The translations under genes and the position numbers were made by a program. This document shows, one piece after another, positions 3,515 to 49,825 of a stretch of DNA of 64,000 bases. Positions within the stretch are counted from its first letter, which is position 1; each line of letters opens with the position of its first letter. Under the pieces are notes generated by a model that was not told the DNA's origin, did no database searches, and saw nothing but the letters and a program-made list of their open reading frames with translations. This DNA comes from Neoarius graeffei (lineage: Eukaryota; Chordata; Actinopteri; Siluriformes; Ariidae): contig NC_083569.1 in the NCBI RefSeq assembly GCF_027579695.1, forward strand, positions 68,509,149 to 68,573,148, read 5' to 3'.

Positions 3515-4067
3515 GTGTCATAACAGTGGTTACATGCTGAGATTTTAGGCAAAATTTTCTGAATGTGACAGACGTTGATTATCTTTGGTCACAGTGGCAC
3601 TAAATCCACTGGTGAGCATGTCACATTAAGCATTCTAAAATCACCAATCTCAATTTCAAATTATCCTTTACAATTTGTGATTGTGACTGCGAGAGCAAAA
3701 TCAGGCTGAATATCATACACTGTAATGCCGACTTAACACAAGCTTCCTTAGAGACAGGTGAAGTTGCTGACCACATCCTTTTGAACTGCTGCTCATGCTG
3801 CATCACGGGTTGGTGTAACACATGGAAAGCGCTATCCACCTCTCCTGCAAGCATGAGCTCACAGACACCAATGATTTGCTAGTGTCATTATGATAAGTGA
3901 GAGAGTATGCCAGCCCTCCCACCCAGAAAACATGGCCCAGTCACAGATGGCGATGGCATCGTCCAGATTCAAACTTGCAATCTCTGAATTTCAAATTTCA
4001 GAGGAATTGCAGTATTATAAATGGGCATATGTGGTATGAATACATGCATTCATGGATGCAGTATAAA
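3515..4067. other. No gene recognised
   Basis: Possibly the remaining part of the element carrying the MADF exon, but I could not match ends. No other feature is supported. Confidence 0.4.
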
Positions 4068-4233
4068 TACAGCACCAGTCAAAAGTTTGGACACACCTAC
4101 TCATTCATCTGTGTTTCTGTATTTTGATTATTTTCTACATTGTAGAACACTGAAGACATCAAAACTATGAAATAACCTATGGAGCATGTATGGAATTATG
4201 TGGTAAACAAAAAAGTGTTTAAAAAACAACATA

Positions 4234-5843
4234 CAGTGGTGCTTGAAAGTTTGTGAACCCTTTAGAATTTTCTATGTTTCTGCATAAATATGACCTAAAA
4301 CATCATCAGATTTTCACATAAGTCCTAAAAGTAGATAAAGAGAACCCAGTTAAACAAATGAGACAAAAATATTATACCTGGTCATTTATTTATTGAGGAA
4401 AATAATCCAATATTACATATCAGTGAGTGACAAAAGTATGTGAACCTCTAGGATTAGCAGTTAATTTGAAGGTGAAATTAGAGTCGGGTGTTTTCAATCA
4501 GTGAGATGACAATCAGGAGTGAGTGGGCACCCTGTTTTATTTAAAGAACAGGGATCTATCAAAGTCTGATCTTCACAACACATGTTTGTGGAAGTGTATC
4601 ATGGCACGAGCAAAGGAGATTTCTGAGAACCTCAGAAAAAGCATTGTTGATGCTCCTCAGGCTGGAAAATGTTACAAAACCATCTCTAAAGAGTTTGGAC
4701 TCGACCAATCCACAGTCAGACAGATTGTGTACAAATGGAAGAAATTCAAGACCATTGTTACCCTCCCCAGGAGTGGTTGACCAACAAAGATCACTCCAAG
4801 AGCAAGGCGTGTAATAGTCAGGGAGGTCACAAAGGACCCCAGGGTAACTTCTAAGCAACTGAAGACCTCTCTCACATTGGCTAATGTTAATGTTCATGAG
4901 TCCACCATCAGGAGAACACTGAACAACAATGGCGTGCATGGCAGAGTTGCAAGGAGAAAGCCGCTGCTCTCCAAAAAGAACATTGCTGCTCATCTGCAGT
5001 TTGCAAAAGATCACGTGGACAAGCCAGAAGGCTATTGGAAAAATATTTTTTGGACGGATGAGACGAAAATAGAACTTTTTGGTTTAAATGAGAAGCGTTA
5101 TGTTTGGAGAAAGGAAAACACTGCATTCCAGCAGAAGAACCTTATCCCATCTGTGAAACGTGGTGGTGGTAGTATCATGGTTTGGGCCTGTTTGGCTGCA
5201 TCTGGGCCAGGACGGCTTGCCATCATTGATGGAACAATGAATTCTGAATTATACCAGCAAATTCGAAAGGAAAGTGTCAGGACATCTGTCCATGAACTGA
5301 ATCTCAAGAGAAGGTGGGTCATGCAGCAAGACAACGACCCTAAGCACACAAGTCGTTCTACCAAAGAATGGCTAAAGAAGAATAAAGTTAATGTTTTGGA
5401 ATGGCCAAGTCAAAGTCCTGACCTTAATCCAATGGAAATGTTGTGGAAGGACCTGAAGCGAGCAGTTCATGTGAGGAAACCCACCAACATCCCAGAGTTG
5501 AAGCTGTTCTGTACGGAGGAACGGGCTAAAATTCCTCCAAGCCAGTGTGCAGGACTGATCAACAGTTACCGCAAACGTTTAGTTGCAGTTATTGCTGCAC
5601 AAGGGGGTCACACCAGATAGTGAAAGCAAAGGTTCACATACTTTTGCCACTCACAGATATGTAATATTGGATCATTTTCCTCAATAAATAAATGACCAAG
5701 TATAATATTTTTGTCTCATTTGTTTAACTGGGTTCTCTTTATTTACTTTTAGGACTTGTGTGAAAATCTGATGATGTTTTAGGTCATATTTATGCAGAAA
5801 TATAGAAAATTCTAAAGGGTTCACAAACTTTCAAGCACCACTG
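4234..5843 (+). mobile_element. Tc1-A, complete Tc1-like transposon
   Basis: The 1610-bp element begins CAGTGGTGCTTGAAAG and ends with its reverse complement. TA dinucleotides flank both sides (4232-4233 and 5844-5845), the Tc1/mariner target duplication. Terminal inverted repeats are about 213 bp (4234-4446 and 5631-5843), long repeats of the IR/DR type. It sits inside repeat B. Two more members of the same family occur at 8536-31524 and 9882-11490. Confidence 0.95.
4601..5620 (+). pseudogene. Tc1 transposase (DD34E), one premature stop
   Basis: The frame from ATG 4601 to TAG 5620 spans 339 residues, the usual length of a Tc1 transposase, and is broken only by TGA at 4778-4780 (codon 60). 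The sister copy at 9882-11490 has CGA there, so this is one CpG transition. The N-terminal part carries the paired-type helix-turn-helix region (KEISENLRKSIVDA... STVRQIVYKW). Catalytic residues are visible: WTDET (first Asp), [11 protein letters not shown] (second Asp) and SPDLNPMEMLW (Glu). A long minus-strand frame here (4559-5014) is antisense shadow. Confidence 0.95.
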
Positions 5844-8755: not shown

Positions 8756-9427
8756 TCAGTATCTGGTGTGACCCCCCTGTGCAGTAATAACTGTAACTAA
8801 ACGTTTCCGGTAACTGTTGATCAGTCCTGTACACCGGCTTGGAGGAATTTTAGCCCATTCCTCCGTACAGAACAGCTTCAACTCTGGGATGTTGGTGGGT
8901 TTCCTCACATGAACTGCTTGCTTCAGGTCCTTCCACAACATTTCAATTGGATTAAGGTCAGGACTTTGACTTGGCCATTCCAAAACATTAACTTTATTCT
9001 TCTTTAACCATTCTTCGGTAGAACAACTTGTGTGCTTAGGGTCGTTGTCTTGCTGCATGACCCACCTTCTCTTGAGATTCAGTTCATGGACAGATGTCCT
9101 GACATTTTCCTTTAGAATTCGCTGGTATAATTCAGAATTCATTGTTCCATCAATGATGGCAAGCCGTCCTGGCCCAGATGCAGCAAAACAGGCCCAAACC
9201 ATGATACTACCACCACCATGTTTCACAGATGGGATAAGGTTCTTATGCTGGAACGCAGTGTTTTCCTTTCTCCAAACATAACGCTTCTCATTTAAACCAA
9301 AAAGTTCTATTTTGGTCTCATCCATCCACAAAACATTTTCCCAATAGCCTTCTGGCTTGTCCATGTGATCTTTAGCAAACTGCAGATGAGCAGCAATGTT
9401 CTTTTTGGACAGCAGTGGCTTTCTCCT
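8756..9427 (-). pseudogene. Tc1-H transposase, C-terminal two thirds
   Basis: Open minus-strand frame from RRKPLLSKKN to the stop at 8756-8758, with first Asp in WMDET, second in [11 protein letters not shown] and Glu in SPDLNPIEMLW, so all catalytic residues are kept. The N-terminal DNA-binding part is not here; it lies 21 kb away at 30450-30785 on the other side of the BEL insertion. Confidence 0.93.
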
Positions 9428-9881
9428 TATGCCGACCATTGATGGGATGCGAGACTCCTGTTCCTTTCACAGATGTTTACTGACACCATAGAACTAAAAG
9501 TTCAAGTAGACAAAATAAAAGACAACATCAGCTATTGCAATCATTACAGAAATAGCATTGCTTAGCACTGTAGCCAATACCGATAAAAAATACATAAAGT
9601 AATACTGACCACTTTAGCCTGCTTTTCAACCAACAGCAGAGTCATTCCCCAGAGGCAATCTTCACAGTAAAAAAAAAAAAGATTCTTCAGCTTACACTTC
9701 TCATAAAACCACATTCACACAGTTATAATAAACACCACAAAGCATGGAGTAAGAATAAAAAGGAACGAACTAGCAGGTAACATCACCGCTACAAGTACTC
9801 CTCGGTCTCTGTGTGACGCTTATGGAGCTAATAGGCGCTACTTCCGTTTTTTTTTTTTTTACTCCTTTCAAAATAAAGGTA

Positions 9882-11490
9882 CAGTGGTGCTTGAAAGTTT
9901 GTGAACCCTTTAGAATTTTCTATATTTCTGCATAAATATGATCTAAAACATCATCAGATTTTCACACAAGTCCTAAAAGTAGATAAAGAAAACCCAGTTA
10001 AACAAATGAGACAAAAATATTATACTTGGTCATTTATTTATTGAGGAAAATGATCCAATATTACATATCTGTGAGTGGCAAAAGTATGTGAACCTTTGCT
10101 TTCAGTATCTGGTGTGACCCCCTTGTGCAGCAATAACTGCAACTAAACGTTTCCAGTAACTGTTGATCAGTCCTGCACACCAGCTTGGAGGAATTTTAGC
10201 CATTCTTCCGTACAGAACAGCTTCAACTCTAGGATGTTGGTGGGTTTCCTCACATGAACTGCTCGCTTCAGGTCCTTCTACAACATTTTGATTGGATTAA
10301 GGTCAGGACTTTGACTTGGCCATTCCAAAACATTAACTTTATTCTTCTTTAACCATTCTTTGGTAGAACGACTTGTGTGCTTAGGGTCATTGTCTTGCTG
10401 CATGACCCACCTTCTCTTGAGATTTAGTTCATGGACAGGTGTCCTGACATTTTCCTTTAGAATTCACTGGTATAATTCAGAATTCATTGTTCCATCAATG
10501 ATGGCAAGCCATCCTGGCCCAGATGCAGCAATACAGGCCCAAACCATGATACTACCACCACTATGTTTCACAGATGGGATAAGGTTCTTATGCTGAAATG
10601 CAATGTTTTTCTTTCTCCAAACATAATGCTTCTCATTTAAACCAAAAAGTTCTATTTTGGTCTCATCCATCCACAAAACATCTTTCCAATAACCTTCTGG
10701 CTTGTCCACATGATCTTTAGCAAACTGCAGATGAGCAACAATGTTCTTTTTGGAGAGCAGTGGCTTTCTCCTTGCAACTCTGCCATGCACACCATTGTTG
10801 TTCAGTGTTCTCCTGATGGTGGACTCATGAACATTAACATTAGCCAATGTGAGAGACACCTTCAGTTGCTTAGAAGTTACCCTGGGGTCCTTTGTGACCT
10901 CGCCGACTATTACATGCCTTGCTCTTGGAGTGATCTTTGTTGATCGACCACTCCTGGGGAGGGTAACAATGGTCTTGAATTTCCTCCATTTGTACACAAC
11001 CTGTCTGACTGTGGATTGGTGGAGTCCAAACTCTTTAGAGATGGTTTTGTAACCTTTTCCAGCCTGATGAGCATCAACAACGCTTTTTCTGAGGTCCTCA
11101 GAAATCTCCTTTGTCTGTGCCATGATACACTTTCACAAACATATGTTGTGAAGATCAGACTTTGATCGATCCCTGTTCTTTAAATAAAACAGGGTGCCCA
11201 CTCACACCTGATTGTCATCCCATTGATTGAAAACACCTGACTCTAATTTCACCTTCAAATTAACTGCTAATCCTAGAGGTTCACATACTTTTGCCACTCA
11301 CAGATATGGAATATTGGATCATTTTCCACAATAAATAAATGACCAAGTATAATATTTTTGTCTCATTTGTTTAACTGGGTTCTCTTGATCTACTTTTAGG
11401 ACTTGTGTGAAAATCCAATGATGTTTTAGGTCATATTTATGCAGAAATATAGAAAATTCTAAAGGGTTCACAAACTTTCAAGCACCACTG
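9882..11490 (-). mobile_element. Tc1-D, complete Tc1-like transposon inside the BEL-1 LTR
   Basis: 1609 bp, CAGTGGTGCTTGAAAG ends, TA on both sides (9880-9881 and 11491-11492). Same family as Tc1-A and Tc1-H. The other LTR of BEL-1 preserves the uninterrupted sequence around GGTACATATTTC (30401-30412), a natural empty site. Confidence 0.95.
10102..11123 (-). pseudogene. Tc1-D transposase with a nonsense codon and a frameshift
   Basis: Minus-strand ATG at 11123 opens MAQTKEISEDLRKSVVDAHQ; the frame runs 219 codons to a TGA at 10464-10466, where the other copies have CGA (Tc1-A and Tc1-H read CGA ATT). Downstream the sequence resumes the transposase, but near 10197 one C of a CCC run is missing relative to the copy at 8756-9427, shifting the frame before the end. 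The first catalytic Asp (WMDET) is upstream of the stop; the second Asp and Glu are downstream. Confidence 0.9.
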
Positions 11491-27041: not shown

Positions 27042-27313
27042 TACACAGGAAACCCACACACACTGACCAAAATTTAAACTGGACTTCCGAACACCCCATA
27101 ATGCACAAAATATCTGTAGTTAGAACATTACATGAACGCGCAGCAATAATTACAGATGCACAGTACAAAGAACAGGAAGAACAACATATACAACACGCAC
27201 TGAAGGCATGTCAATATCCACAATGGGCAATATCCAAAGGGGCGGAACAGGTCAAAAACAATAAAACACAGAAGAGAAAAAACAAACCAACAAACAAGAA
27301 CACAGGGGAGTAG
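27042..27313 (+). pseudogene. Penelope-like RT, C-terminal end
   Basis: VHRKPTHTDQNLNWTSEHP and HKISVVRTLHERAAIITDAQ are the end of the RT thumb region in Penelope-like and related elements. The frame starts inside the left pLTR arm and stops at 27313. The palm with the catalytic YADD-type motif is absent. Confidence 0.75.
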
Positions 27314-27834
27314 TGACATTACCATACATCAGAGGAATAACGGAACGCATTCAAAGAGCAATGAGGAAATACAACATTAACACACCTGTCAAACCACACA
27401 CAACACTCCGTCAGATCCTGGTTAATCCCAAAGACAGAATACATCCGGACAACAGATGCAACACCATATATGAGATTCCATGCCAATTATGCAATAAAAC
27501 TTACATTGGGGAGACAGGAAGGAGTTTCAACACAAGAAAAAATGAACATAAGAAAGAGTGCGAAAAGGAGACAGCTACAAGACAAACCCAAACAATAAAA
27601 GAAAAGGCACAACAGGAAAATTATAAGTCAGCCATAACAGATCATTGCAAAAGGGAAAATCATATTATGGACTGGGGGAATGCCAGAGTCATCCGCACAG
27701 AAGATAATAAACATCAGCGCTGGATCAGGGAGGCCATAGAGATCCGTAAGCAAAGTCCGAGGACCATCAACCGAGATGAGGGAGCATACATGCTCTCCCA
27801 TACCTGGAGTGCCATCTTGCAGGGGACGAGCTGA
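27313..27834 (+). pseudogene. GIY-YIG endonuclease domain of the Penelope-like element
   Basis: A 173-codon frame. NTIYEIPCQLCNKTYIGETG followed by RSFNTRKNEHKKEC matches the GIY-YIG nuclease: Y-(I) before the linker, YIG, then a downstream Arg and His/Glu region. A CxxC (CQLC) precedes YIG, as in the Penelope zinc-linker form. The frame may be complete at its C-terminus (TSYM-like SHTW end), but expression is unlikely without the RT. Confidence 0.82.
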
Positions 27835-38585: not shown

Positions 38586-38647
38586 GGGGCTTGCAGAGGC
38601 CACCGACAGTCCTGTTGGAACTTTCACAGAGTGAAGACTTCCGAACA

Positions 38648-39943
38648 ATGACAGACCAAGAGAAACACCAGTATGCTGTTGCTGCTCTCATGCATCACAA
38701 CAACCTCCTGCAGTTGGCATTGCACCAGGTTAAGATGTCCAAGGCAGAGGCAAAGAAGAAAAGGAAGAGGAGAGGGAGAAAGAGCTGGGTGAGACCCTGG
38801 ATAGGAAGGCGACCACAGTTTGGTGTTTATGACAAGCTGATGGCTGAACTCCGAGCTGAAGACCAAGCCTCCTTCCACAACTTCCTGCGCATGCCAGCAG
38901 TGATGTTTGATGAGCTGAGACAGAGAGTTGGTCCCAGGATCACCAAGAAGGACACTCGCTTTAGACCGGCCCTCGACCCTGGTATGAAGCTGGCCCTGAC
39001 TTTGCGACACCTTGCCTCTGGTGACAGCTATGCTTCACAGAAGTTTGCCTGGAGAGTACCTCACAACACACAGTCACTGGTGGTCAGAGAGGTTTCCCAT
39101 GCCATACTGGACGAGTACCTGGATGAGATGCTGACCTGCCCCAGTACGCCAGAAGAGTGGAAGGAAGTTGCTGACAGATTCTATCAGAGGTGGAACTTCC
39201 CCCATGTCCTGGGAGCACTAGATGGCAAGCATGTGGCCATTAGGTGTCCTGCAGAGAGTGGCTCCTTGTATTACAACTACAAGGGGTTCTATTCCATCGT
39301 GTTGCTGGCCCTTGTGGATTCTGACTACAAGTTCCTGTGGGCAGATCTTGGAGGCCTGGGATCAGCATCCGATGCCCAGATCTACAACTCCAGTGAGCTG
39401 AAACATGGAGCTGAAGAAGACCTGCTTGGGTTTCCACAGCCTATACCTCTCCCACAAGACACTACAGATGTTCCATACTTCTTCATTGGAGATGACGCCT
39501 TTGCCCTGAGAGCCTACATGATGAAGCCCTACAGTCTCCGTGGTCTATCACAGGAGGAGCGCATTTTCAACTACAGACTGTCGAGAGCCAGGAGGGTCGT
39601 GGAGAACGCCTTTGGGATCCTTGCCAACAGGTTCCAGGTGATTCTTGGCACTATGCAGCACAAGCCAGAGACTGTGAAGCTGATAGTGAAGACCTGCTTG
39701 GTCCTTCACAACTTGATGAGGGTCAGATATCCAACACTGCAGAACCAACAGCTGGACCAGCCAGAAGGTCCAGAAGAAGACTTTGTGCCTGGTGCCTGGA
39801 GAGATGGCTTCAATATGGAAGACACACAGGTTGTTGCAGGCCCCAACACTGCGACCAAAGAAGCCAAGAAGCAGAGGAACCTCATCAAGCACTGGGTCAA
39901 CTCCTCAGCTGGGGCACTGGACTGGCAGGACAGGATGGTGTAG
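38648..39943 (+). CDS. Harbinger transposase (HARBI1-like, DDE)
   Basis: 431 residues from ATG 38648 (MTDQEKHQYA). The frame is open from TTG 38591, but TTG is not a likely eukaryotic start. Order: basic stretch KKKRKRRGRKSW (possible nuclear signal), ELRAEDQASFHNFLRMPAVM, helix-turn-helix region LALTLRHLASGDSYASQKF, then the DDE_4 catalytic core: Asp in LGALDGKHVAIRCP, Asp in GSASDAQIYNSSEL, Glu in RARRVVENAFGIL. There are no stops or frameshifts, length is as expected for the family, and all three catalytic residues are present, so this is the one gene in the window that could still be functional. It would cut at the terminal repeats, normally with a MADF/Myb-like partner. Confidence 0.93.
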   Translation: MTDQEKHQYAVAALMHHNNLLQLALHQVKMSKAEAKKKRKRRGRKSWVRPWIGRRPQFGVYDKLMAELRAEDQASFHNFLRMPAVMFDELRQRVGPRITKKDTRFRPALDPGMKLALTLRHLASGDSYASQKFAWRVPHNTQSLVVREVSHAILDEYLDEMLTCPSTPEEWKEVADRFYQRWNFPHVLGALDGKHVAIRCPAESGSLYYNYKGFYSIVLLALVDSDYKFLWADLGGLGSASDAQIYNSSELKHGAEEDLLGFPQPIPLPQDTTDVPYFFIGDDAFALRAYMMKPYSLRGLSQEERIFNYRLSRARRVVENAFGILANRFQVILGTMQHKPETVKLIVKTCLVLHNLMRVRYPTLQNQQLDQPEGPEEDFVPGAWRDGFNMEDTQVVAGPNTATKEAKKQRNLIKHWVNSSAGALDWQDRMV

Positions 39944-42140: not shown

Positions 42141-42325
42141 TAGAGGGAATGCCATGGTCTAATGGTTAAAGCTTTGGGACTTTAGCTTTGGGACTAAAAG
42201 GTTGCCGGTTTGATTCCCTAGACTAGCAGGAGCAAGGCACCTAACCCCCAACTGCTCCCCAGGCTGCTCTGGGTATGCTGTATGTCGCTCTGGATAAGAG
42301 CGTTTGCTAAATGGCATTAATGTAG
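42141..42325 (+). mobile_element. tRNA-derived SINE of a second family
   Basis: Head ATGGTCTAATGGTTAAAGC (A box) and GGTTGCCGGTTTGATTCC (B box), then GAGCAAGGCACCTAACCCCC and the LINE-like tail TCGCTCTGGATAAGAGCG followed by TTTGCTAAATGGC. A GGGACTTTAGCTTT segment is duplicated inside the head. Unlike the DANA-like SINE it lacks the GGTTTCCTCCGG core. Confidence 0.8.
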
Positions 42326-44875: not shown

Positions 44876-44891
44876 AGTTTAAGTTTGAATA

Positions 44892-45349
44892 ATGCCAGAG
44901 GCTGTTCACCTTGGAGACCTGCTGCGGATATGGGTACAGCCCGGCACGAGACTTACACCCTCTCCCCCGGATTTTCAAGGGCCAGCAAGAGCTCACCGGA
45001 CGCCGCCAGAACCGTGGCACTTTCCAGGGTGCGGGCCCCTATCTCAGGTTGAACCCATTCCAGGGCGCCCTGCCCTTCACAAAGAAAAGAGAACTCTTCC
45101 CGGGGCCCCCGCCAGCGTCTCCGGGTTCGTTTGCGTTACCGCACTGGACGCCTCGCGGTGCCTATATCCGCCACTCCGGGTTCGGGGATCTGAACCCGAC
45201 TCCCTTTCAATCGGCCGGGGGTGACGGAGGCCATCGCCCCGCCCTTCGGAACGGCGTTCACCCATCCCTTAGGACCGACTGACCCATGTTCAACTGCTGT
45301 TCACATGGAACCCTTCTCCACTTCGGCCTTCAAAGCTCTCGTTTGAATA
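44892..45349 (-). pseudogene. 28S ribosomal RNA gene fragment
   Basis: Complement of an internal part of large-subunit rRNA: on the minus strand it runs from TATTCAAACGAGAGC, GGTTCCATGTGAACAGCAG and GGGTCAGTCGGTCC to CCATATCCGCAGCAGGTCTC and GGTGAACAGCCTCTGGCAT. This stretch is highly conserved in animals, so identification is secure from memory. It is GC-rich, unlike its surroundings, and is not a functional gene. Frames of 110 and 123 codons across it are artefacts. Confidence 0.95.
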
Positions 45350-45540
45350 AAGCCAGATAATTATGTTCTCCCCGTTTGAATAATGCCAGAGAATTACAGT
45401 ATGTTCTCCCCGTGTCCGCGTGGGTTTCCTCTGGGTGCTCCGGTTTCCCCCACAGTCCAAAGACATGCAGGTTAGGTTAACTGGTGACTCTAAATTGACC
45501 GTAGGTGTGAATGTGAGTGTGAATGGTTGTCTGTCTCTAT

Positions 45541-46231
45541 GGCTACGTTTACATTACGTCGAATCAGCGGATCATCAGATTAATGTTCTTAAAATGATTC
45601 GCGTTTACACTAAAACCGTTAGCCGTGCACACAGCAACACCAATACGCGGATACGCTCGGCTCCGCAGGCATCCTGCGCTCCAAATCACTCCGCCCTGAA
45701 CAGCGAGTGTCCTCTGGAGGGTGTGCACTCCGGCCCTGCGCAGCTCACAGAGCGCGCGAGTGAAGTGAACAAGCCACGATTCGGGACTGAGCCGCTGTGT
45801 GTGTGATCCCAGCGCATATCACTTATTACTTGCAAGTGGAAGGATGGCAAGCCTAAAGACAATCATAACTACACAATGGGCAGTATTTGCATCAGTATTT
45901 GCAGTATTTTCATACTTTTATACTCTTTAATGAAAGGTGATACAAGGCGGAAGTCTGCGCCGTTTTTCAGCAGTCGCGTCACATGACCAACGCCAGCGAA
46001 TCAGGAAGGTGGATGTCACAGTGACGTTGTCCAATGAGACGCCAGCTAGAGCTCAGCACAGCGTATTCGCGTATTCTCAATGTTTACACAGCACCGGAGC
46101 TGATACGATCTAGATTGAATACGTGGACGCTGGCGGATTCCCGTTTCCCCGCTTTTTCAGGGGGGTTAATGTAAACGGACAGTGCATCCGCGAAGAAAAC
46201 GAGACAGATACGGTCTAGTGTAAACGTAGCC
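45541..46231. mobile_element. Element M, copy 1 (inside a SINE)
   Basis: 691 bp, ends GGCTACGTTTACATTA and GGCTACGTTTACACTA (complement). TAT/TAA flanks suggest a short target duplication in SINE sequence. The interior is CpG-rich in its first part, then contains a short ORF at 45844-45930. About 95% similar by eye to copy 2. Confidence 0.85.
45844..45930 (+). CDS. 28-residue hydrophobic ORF in element M (copy 1)
   Basis: ATG to TAA, beginning MASLKTIITTQWAVF and ending FSYFYTL: a short polar start and a hydrophobic stretch that could span a membrane. The same ORF is found at 49297-49383 with no visible difference, while surrounding element M sequence does differ. Function unknown; it may be the first exon of a captured host gene or chance. 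Confidence 0.35.
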   Translation: MASLKTIITTQWAVFASVFAVFSYFYTL

Positions 46232-46367
46232 TAAGTGTCAGCCCTGTGATGACCTGGCAACTTGTCCAGGGTGTACCCCGCCTTTCGCCCGTAGTCAGCT
46301 GGGATAGGCTCCAGCTTGCCTGCGACCCTGTAGAACAGGATAAAGTGGCTAGAGAATGAGTTTAAGT

Positions 46368-48655: not shown

Positions 48656-48984
48656 TGTGCATTAATATCTTATAGTAAATAGTAAAATGAAATATCATAT
48701 TTCAAGAAAGGCCCAGAGAAAATATATTTCATTATCACAGAATGTTAGGTGGGGGGCTCGGTGGTGTAGTGGTTAGCGCTGTTGCCTCACAGCAAGAAGG
48801 TCTGGGTTCGAGCCCTGTGGCCGGTGAGGGCCTTTCTGTGCGGAGTTTGCATGTTATCCCCGTGTCCACGTGGGTTTCCTCCGGGTGCTCCGGTTTCCCC
48901 CACAGTCCAAAGACATGCAGGTTAGGTTAACTGGTGACTCTAAATTGACCGTAGATGTGAGTGTGAATGGTTGTCTGTGTCTAT

Positions 48985-49684
48985 GCCCATGTTTACATTA
49001 GACCGTATCAGCGGATCATCAGATTAACGTTTTTAAAACGATTAGTGTGCACACAGCAACACCAATACACGATTTGCGTGCACACAGCAACACCAATACA
49101 CGGATACGCTCGGCTCCGCAGGCATCCTGCGCTCCAAATCACTCCGCCCTGAACAGCGAGTGCCCTCTGGAGGGTGCGCACTCCGGCCTTGCGCAGCTCA
49201 CAGAGCACGCGAGTGAAGTGAACAAGCTGTGATTCGGGACTGAGCCGCTGTGTGTGTGATCCCAGCGCACATCACTTACCACTTGCAAGTGGAAGGATGG
49301 CAAGCCTAAAGACAATCATAACTACACAATGGGCAGTATTTGCATCAGTATTTGCAGTATTTTCATACTTTTATACTCTTTAATGAAAGGTGATACAAGG
49401 CGGAAGTCCGCGCCGTTTTTCAGCAGTCGCGTCACATGACCAACGCCAGCGAATCAGGAAGGTGGATGTCACAGTGACGTTGTCCAATGAGACACCAGCT
49501 AGAGCTCAGCACAGCGTATCCGCGTATTCTGAATGTTTACACAGCACCGGATCAGACACGATCTGGATTGAATACGTGGATCCTGGCGGATTCCCGTTTC
49601 CCGGCGTTTCCAGGCGGTTTAATGTAAACGGACAGTGCATCCGCGAAGAAAACGAGACAGATACGGTCTAATGTAAACTTGGCC
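48985..49684. mobile_element. Element M, copy 2 (same SINE position as copy 1)
   Basis: 700 bp, ends GCCCATGTTTACATTA and, complemented, GGCCAAGTTTACATTAG. Compared with copy 1 it has a small duplication of CACACAGCAACACCAATACA near 49068-49099. Sits after the same SINE base as copy 1. Confidence 0.88.
49297..49383 (+). CDS. 28-residue hydrophobic ORF in element M (copy 2)
   Basis: Same peptide as at 45844-45930 (MASLKT...FYTL). No stop or frameshift difference between the copies. Confidence 0.35.
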   Translation: MASLKTIITTQWAVFASVFAVFSYFYTL

Positions 49685-49825
49685 TATGTGTCAGCCCTGT
49701 GACAACCTGGTGACTTGTCCAGGGTGTACCCCGCCTTTCGCCCGTAGTCAGCTGGGATAGGCTCCAGCTTGCCTGCGACCCTGTAGAACAGGATAAAGTG
49801 GCTAGAGATAATGAGAATGTTAGGT

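Follow-up and report, generated by a model that had tools for sequence, protein, structure and literature searches.

A 458-nt piece of 28S rRNA and a SINE without its head stand side by side in the genome of Neoarius graeffei, in opposite orientations and within one target duplication, and both have likely been inserted in a single event. The locus lies in a 64,000-nucleotide stretch of contig NC_083569.1 (positions 68,509,149 to 68,573,148 of the forward strand), which we call the window and whose own numbering we use throughout. The anatomy of the locus, its enclosing duplication, and its head-to-tail 28S junctions were observed directly, and no second copy was found. Our best reading, to which we give a probability of about 0.6, is a target-primed SINE insertion during which the other DNA end was primed on a 28S fragment (twin priming). 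The main rival is the capture of a 28S circle. New here are the composite SINE as a partner, the head-to-tail arrangement of the 28S sequence, and a genome-wide hint of one-turn rRNA pieces.

The 28S rRNA piece and its ends

The piece is recognized by the Rfam model LSU_rRNA_eukarya (44893-45349, minus strand, E = 1.4e-81, model positions 1468-1888 of 3401). Aligned without gaps, it comprises 458 nt (44892-45349) with the 28S sense on the minus strand, and it immediately precedes the SINE on the 5' side, in antisense orientation to it. It agrees with a human 28S stretch at 421 of 458 positions. We take it to correspond roughly to domain III of the large subunit and presumably to another region than the hot spot of the human chimeras discussed below (28S 3,636-4,115). 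Compared with the majority of the other genomic 28S pieces (20 regions, leaving out L027 and L031-L041), it differs at 14 of 458 sites, 11 of which represent CpG decay. No complete 28S gene was present among the matches listed in two genome searches, in which common words were skipped.

Other genomic pieces reveal how this part of 28S naturally continues: the right flank TTTGCTACTACCACC, or a near-identical version of it, is found in L018, L022, L023, L026, and L028, and the natural left start TTCCCTTACCTACATTG..CCAAC in L016 and L025. These natural flanks are absent at the window piece, and the seven places at which a genome search located the right flank do not include the window. Both ends are thus true breakpoints, and a natural 28S continuation past the 458 nt was ruled out. 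A pattern search of genome contigs found nothing with its first pattern, while its second returned a single bacterial contig that contains a stretch of eukaryotic 28S, and this supplied a natural left flank only. This stretch (L001:4100-4482, Mangrovicoccus) probably reflects contamination or misassembly. The viral contigs, plasmids, and phages searched contained no match.

The Rfam structure has 117 pairs in positions 1468-1888; every one of them closes inside the piece and none leaves it, the last pair ending at 1888. Local covariance-model matches are closed by construction, so the match by itself proves nothing; the agreement with a domain rests on the ends defined by the head-to-tail junctions, which are independent of the model and end at most 1 nt from the closed-domain limits. 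A domain excised with its ends so close together would be well placed for a jump within the molecule or for circle formation.

As for promoter elements, the best B box on the plus strand of the 28S part has 2 mismatches, and the minus strand carries a B box with 1 mismatch (45186-45196) along with A-box-like words with 1 mismatch. Since the window holds 24 B-box matches (at most 1 mismatch) where 20.2 are expected, we make no claim of a Pol III promoter for the 28S part.

Head-to-tail junctions and a duplicated unit

The head-to-tail 28S junctions, the tandem duplication, the ~690-nt insert, and the abundant composite SINE family described in this and the next section all go beyond the first-pass annotation, which had been made from the letters of the window. 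On the left, a 9-nt stub GTTTGAATA (44883-44891, minus strand) is identical to the last 9 nt (plus strand) of the 28S piece, creating the first head-to-tail junction between 44891 and 44892; such an equality arose in 9 of 200,000 random placements. On the right, the first 9 nt of the piece recur twice: the copy at 45383-45391 is exact, and the one at 45350-45358 carries 2 changes. The head-to-tail junction reads CTCTGGCAT followed by TATTCAAAC. With 9-nt stubs of the opposite end on both sides, the template was read head to tail over approximately 1.04 turns (458 nt, extended by 9 nt on either side), whether through jumps from one template end to another or around a circle.

On the side of the SINE, the junction is present as a tandem duplication of a 33/38-bp unit (45341-45411). 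Copy 1 (33 bp, 45341-45373, plus strand) contains the 28S end, the 28S opposite end with 2 substitutions, a filler that is 5 nt shorter, and SINE TGTTCTCCCC. Copy 2 (38 bp, 45374-45411, plus strand) runs through GTTTGAATA, ATGCCAGAG, AATTACAGT, and ATGTTCTCCCC, and thus holds the second head-to-tail junction, the filler, and the SINE start. A 9-nt filler, AATTACAGT, lies between 28S and SINE (45392-45400, plus strand). Slippage with a shared CGT would yield such a duplicated unit, and when slippage of the 38-bp unit is modeled, only 2 substitutions and a 5-nt deletion separate the result from the observed junction. The unit includes the first 11 nt of the SINE, and this locking of the SINE start and the 28S end into one duplicated unit counts against two separate insertions. 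We also considered whether the 28S had entered the SINE unit later, creating an 18-bp duplication, and rejected this because each half of the 18-mer is simply one of the 28S ends.

The composite SINE partner

The SINE is composed of a truncated 5' arm (45401-45541, plus strand) beginning with ATGTTCTCCCC, an insert of ~690 nt with short terminal inverted repeats GCTACGTTTACA (~45542-46235, plus strand, the ends being uncertain by a few bases), and a 3' arm with its tail (46236-46358, plus strand), a tail that we take to be L2-like. At 45401 the first ~100 nt are missing, and this head is present in seven of seven other aligned copies. The head is putatively tRNA-like, as judged by its B box. 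A second composite copy (48753-49815) has its insert at the same SINE position, retains the head, and is surrounded by a duplication of its own, AGAATGTTAGGT; further SINE copies within the window are partial.

Relative to this second copy, the SINE arms show 8 differences over 252 aligned sites; between the 5' arm and a plain copy there are 3 over 140. Between the two inserts, 46 of 689 sites differ, which is above the divergence of the arms and for which insert subtypes are the only explanation we can offer. The SINE-insert junction pattern has 4,662 occurrences in the genome (at most 2 mismatches) and 0 when read backwards. At the first 30 places listed (L056-L085), SINE sequence lies on both sides in all 30. 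A credible 11-19-nt duplication, as judged by us, encloses the whole element at 13 of them, among which L075 and L076 share one duplication and L069 is the second copy of the window. The interiors occupy the same site throughout, 12 of the 30 matching the insert of the second copy and 18 differing from it. Considering this junction abundance and the loci listed first, the SINE joined to the 28S is a member of a large family of composite SINEs.

Evidence for a single insertion event

The sequence AGTTTAAGT stands at both ends of the chimera (44876-44884 and 46359-46367), with the last two bases (GT) of its 5' copy common to the 28S stub. A match of at least 9 nt between sites 1475 nt apart, with a slack of ±3 nt, was obtained in 14 of 20,000 random placements within the window. 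This single duplication encloses the 28S and the SINE together, and the 28S has no duplication of its own besides its own ends. The divergences of the two parts appear to be of the same order, although they are not like for like (majority versus pair). One enclosing duplication and divergence of the same order together support a single event. The situation is different in L030, where a full SINE adjoins a 28S piece but is flanked by a separate duplication, ATATTCTATCCAC, and represents an independent insertion.

Much of the first-pass annotation is hereby confirmed, as it had described a 458-bp antisense 28S piece, a SINE lacking its own head, and one duplication around the whole. Its further suggestions of one insertion event and of an inversion such as twin priming gives also find support.

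Copy number

It had also been proposed that the locus, if amplified, would be a new rRNA-headed SINE family, with a genome search to distinguish multiple copies from a one-off chimera. The junction 18-mer GTTTGAATAATGCCAGAG has 2 exact places in 2.34 Gb, both within the window locus, and the 3 kb read around each of its 5 one-mismatch places contain no 28S match. A genome search with 566 bp listed 50 matches (107 candidates, 40 of them scored), and none of the 49 other matches listed spans the 28S-SINE junction. This search could miss a copy that had decayed further or that was among the candidates left unscored. Within these limits of assembly and search, the chimera seems to be a one-off, and the proposed new family is refuted. 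The SINE-with-insert body does have thousands of relatives, but with the exact junction nowhere else and 2 mismatches in the best plus-strand B box of the 28S part, membership of a newly amplified rRNA-headed family is hardly credible. Recurrent ends at the 28S edges were also considered as the mark of a fixed-end family and dismissed, as for pieces with natural flanks they are merely the ends of the query.

Permuted 28S sequences elsewhere in the genome

Covering 44 of the 49 other matches of the 566-bp search, 32 regions were fetched, seven of which contain 28S sequence in permuted order. Expressed in 28S positions, L010 reads 49-430 and then -5 to 53, L012 reads 50-356 and then -6 to 54, and L013 reads 271-430 (preceded by a piece from ~232, read by eye) and then -7 to 227. 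L015 consists of 246-430 and then 33-242 with an internal rearrangement, L017 of 64-280 and then 64-116, L019 of 242-283 and then 64-256, and L029 of 396-435 and then 280-431 with an internal gap. Five of these seven end at most 15 nt from one full turn. Five of seven was reached in 50 of 200,000 simulations, a figure that is not a probability for independent events, since the loci share flanks and L013 has a start assigned by eye. All seven share flanks among themselves or with other fetched loci, and these flanks read like an LTR retroelement (short coding motifs and a stretch resembling a primer-binding site), so the seven loci may go back to few events.

The permuted loci are a phenomenon separate from the window insertion, yet of the same kind of rRNA joining. 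One tentative and on balance doubtful generalization is that the capture of 28S fragments as circles (RNA or DNA) of roughly one turn is a recurrent event in this genome. The locus described here would then be the case caught by a SINE, and the circle would be a self-contained 28S domain with adjoining ends.

Some further observations were made in the fetched regions. Position 430 of the 28S is a recurring break in L010, L011, L013, and L015. Eleven regions (L027 and L032-L041) carry a 28S-like segment of ~106 nt with ~82-87% identity (93% in L027), whose flanks are alike in the four that were read (L027, L032, L033, and L036), perhaps indicating a repeat family. In L028:763-1722, minus-strand matches to 28S overlap plus-strand matches to the 18S 3' end, with SINE copies on both sides. 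L018:981-1460 is an antisense 28S retrocopy with a T run, located between AAT-type microsatellite stretches.

Proposed mechanism and rival explanations

In the twin-priming reading, a LINE reverse transcriptase would start target-primed reverse transcription of the composite SINE RNA (with its ~690-nt insert) at the site, and synthesis of the SINE cDNA would stop at 45401 with loss of the head. The other DNA end (...AGTTTAAGT-3') would prime on a 28S rRNA fragment, helped by the GT match, and its extension on 28S would amount to twin priming with a foreign RNA, resulting in the inverted orientation. The enzyme would run to the 5' end of the fragment, jump to a 3' end, on that copy or on a different one, and read 458 nt. 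A second jump would add 9 nt, whereupon the two cDNAs would be joined through the filler, and a short slippage at the CGT microhomology would duplicate the junction unit afterward. The identity of the enzyme, the order of these steps, and the RNA nature of the template we infer.

If 28S served as the second template in twin priming, this would explain why the 28S part is inverted and lies 5', why the SINE is truncated, and why a single duplication is seen, and the presence of the SINE 3' end and tail next to a truncated 5' side counts for a target-primed insertion. On the other hand, the duplication is short (9 bp), and 2 of its bases also belong to the 28S stub. If starts and stops were random, it would be a strange coincidence for both stubs to measure 9 nt, and the filler and the duplicated unit also fit end-joining repair. 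The higher divergence of the insert counts against this reading as well, as does the antisense orientation, a minority type among the human 28S/LINE-1 chimeras, 83% of which are sense.

The main rival holds that the template was a real circle, either a 458-nt circular 28S RNA or a small extrachromosomal rDNA circle, copied or ligated into the retrotransposition break. Head-to-tail junctions on both sides and 1.04 turns suit such a circle, as do the permuted loci close to one turn and a fragment whose ends, within 1 nt of a closed domain, would lie close together. Nevertheless, linear fragments with end-to-end jumps yield the same junctions, and the opening of a circle at most 9 nt from its own junction is improbable by chance. 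Moreover, the domain agreement rests on junction-defined ends and the permuted loci, with their shared flanks, may not be independent. Overall, we judge a circle to be unlikely.

A single first-strand synthesis could also have switched from the SINE RNA to an antisense 28S transcript, or have copied a pre-ligated chimeric RNA. Either would put the 28S 5' of the SINE inside one duplication, as observed, but would require antisense 28S RNA, whereas sense 28S is the abundant RNA, which makes this improbable. Two independent insertions, the SINE first and then the 28S piece at its 5' edge, might be expected where both kinds of sequence are common in the genome, and L030 is a real case. Against this, one duplication surrounds both parts in the window, the 28S has only its own ends repeated, one duplicated unit unites the SINE start with the 28S end, and the divergences are of the same order. 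We therefore give independent insertions very little credence.

Comparison with known systems

Eighteen 28S/LINE-1 chimeras have been described in human, with 83% in sense orientation, fragment sizes of 50-482 nt (median 269), and a hot spot at 28S 3,636-4,115; twin priming is the explanation given there for the antisense bias of human RNA/LINE-1 chimeras (PMC13174262). The locus shares with them the 28S at the 5' junction of the retroposon, one target duplication, a likely single insertion, and a size within range, but its partner is a composite SINE instead of LINE-1, and its 28S is antisense and head to tail. End-to-end template jumping is reported for LINE reverse transcriptases (PMC6895275). 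The pseudogenes derived from the circular RNAs circRFWD2 and circSATB1 likewise carry a head-to-tail RNA junction into an insertion, although from exons and not from 28S rRNA joined to a SINE inside its duplication (PMC5345220). A circular source RNA with the junction of this locus is a candidate.

In 5'-inverted L1 insertions made by twin priming, an inverted 5' part also accompanies a target-primed insertion, whereas here the second primer would have used a different RNA (PMC2912911). An enclosing duplication and a 5' inversion are thus present, as in twin-primed LINE and SINE insertions, but the two parts have different source RNAs, and the locus therefore works like a twin-primed insertion rather than being one. 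SINE28 elements are SINEs derived from the 3' end of 28S and also have 28S sequence 5' of the retroposed unit; the locus here carries an internal 28S domain (1468-1888 of 3401), antisense and in single copy (PMC8010984). Neither a multicopy head-body junction, within the limits of the search, nor a head from the 28S 3' end, as in an rRNA-headed SINE family, was found.

A 28S-SINE chimera in fish was not found in the literature searched, which is not proof of absence. The locus extends the observation of human rRNA/LINE-1 chimeras to a SINE, and to fish, and its head-to-tail rRNA junctions resemble what end-to-end template jumping, or circular rRNA, would leave behind in a genome. Its single-copy outcome illustrates that such a chimera need not found a new SINE, and the one-turn permuted 28S pieces elsewhere in the genome make the circle question directly testable.

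Other elements in the window

The window harbors several other mobile-element sequences. An open frame at 4877-5620 encodes a Tc1-like transposase with DDE_3 and HTH_Tnp_Tc3_2 domains, and the open frames at 8756-9439 and 10464-11123 look similar to it. A 450-aa open frame with a DDE_Tnp_4 transposase domain (38591-39943) is presumably Harbinger-like. A 173-aa open frame at 27313-27834 contains a GIY-YIG domain marginally over the Pfam cut-off, and a UnaL2 LINE 3' element at 42267-42320 scores marginally over the Rfam gathering score.
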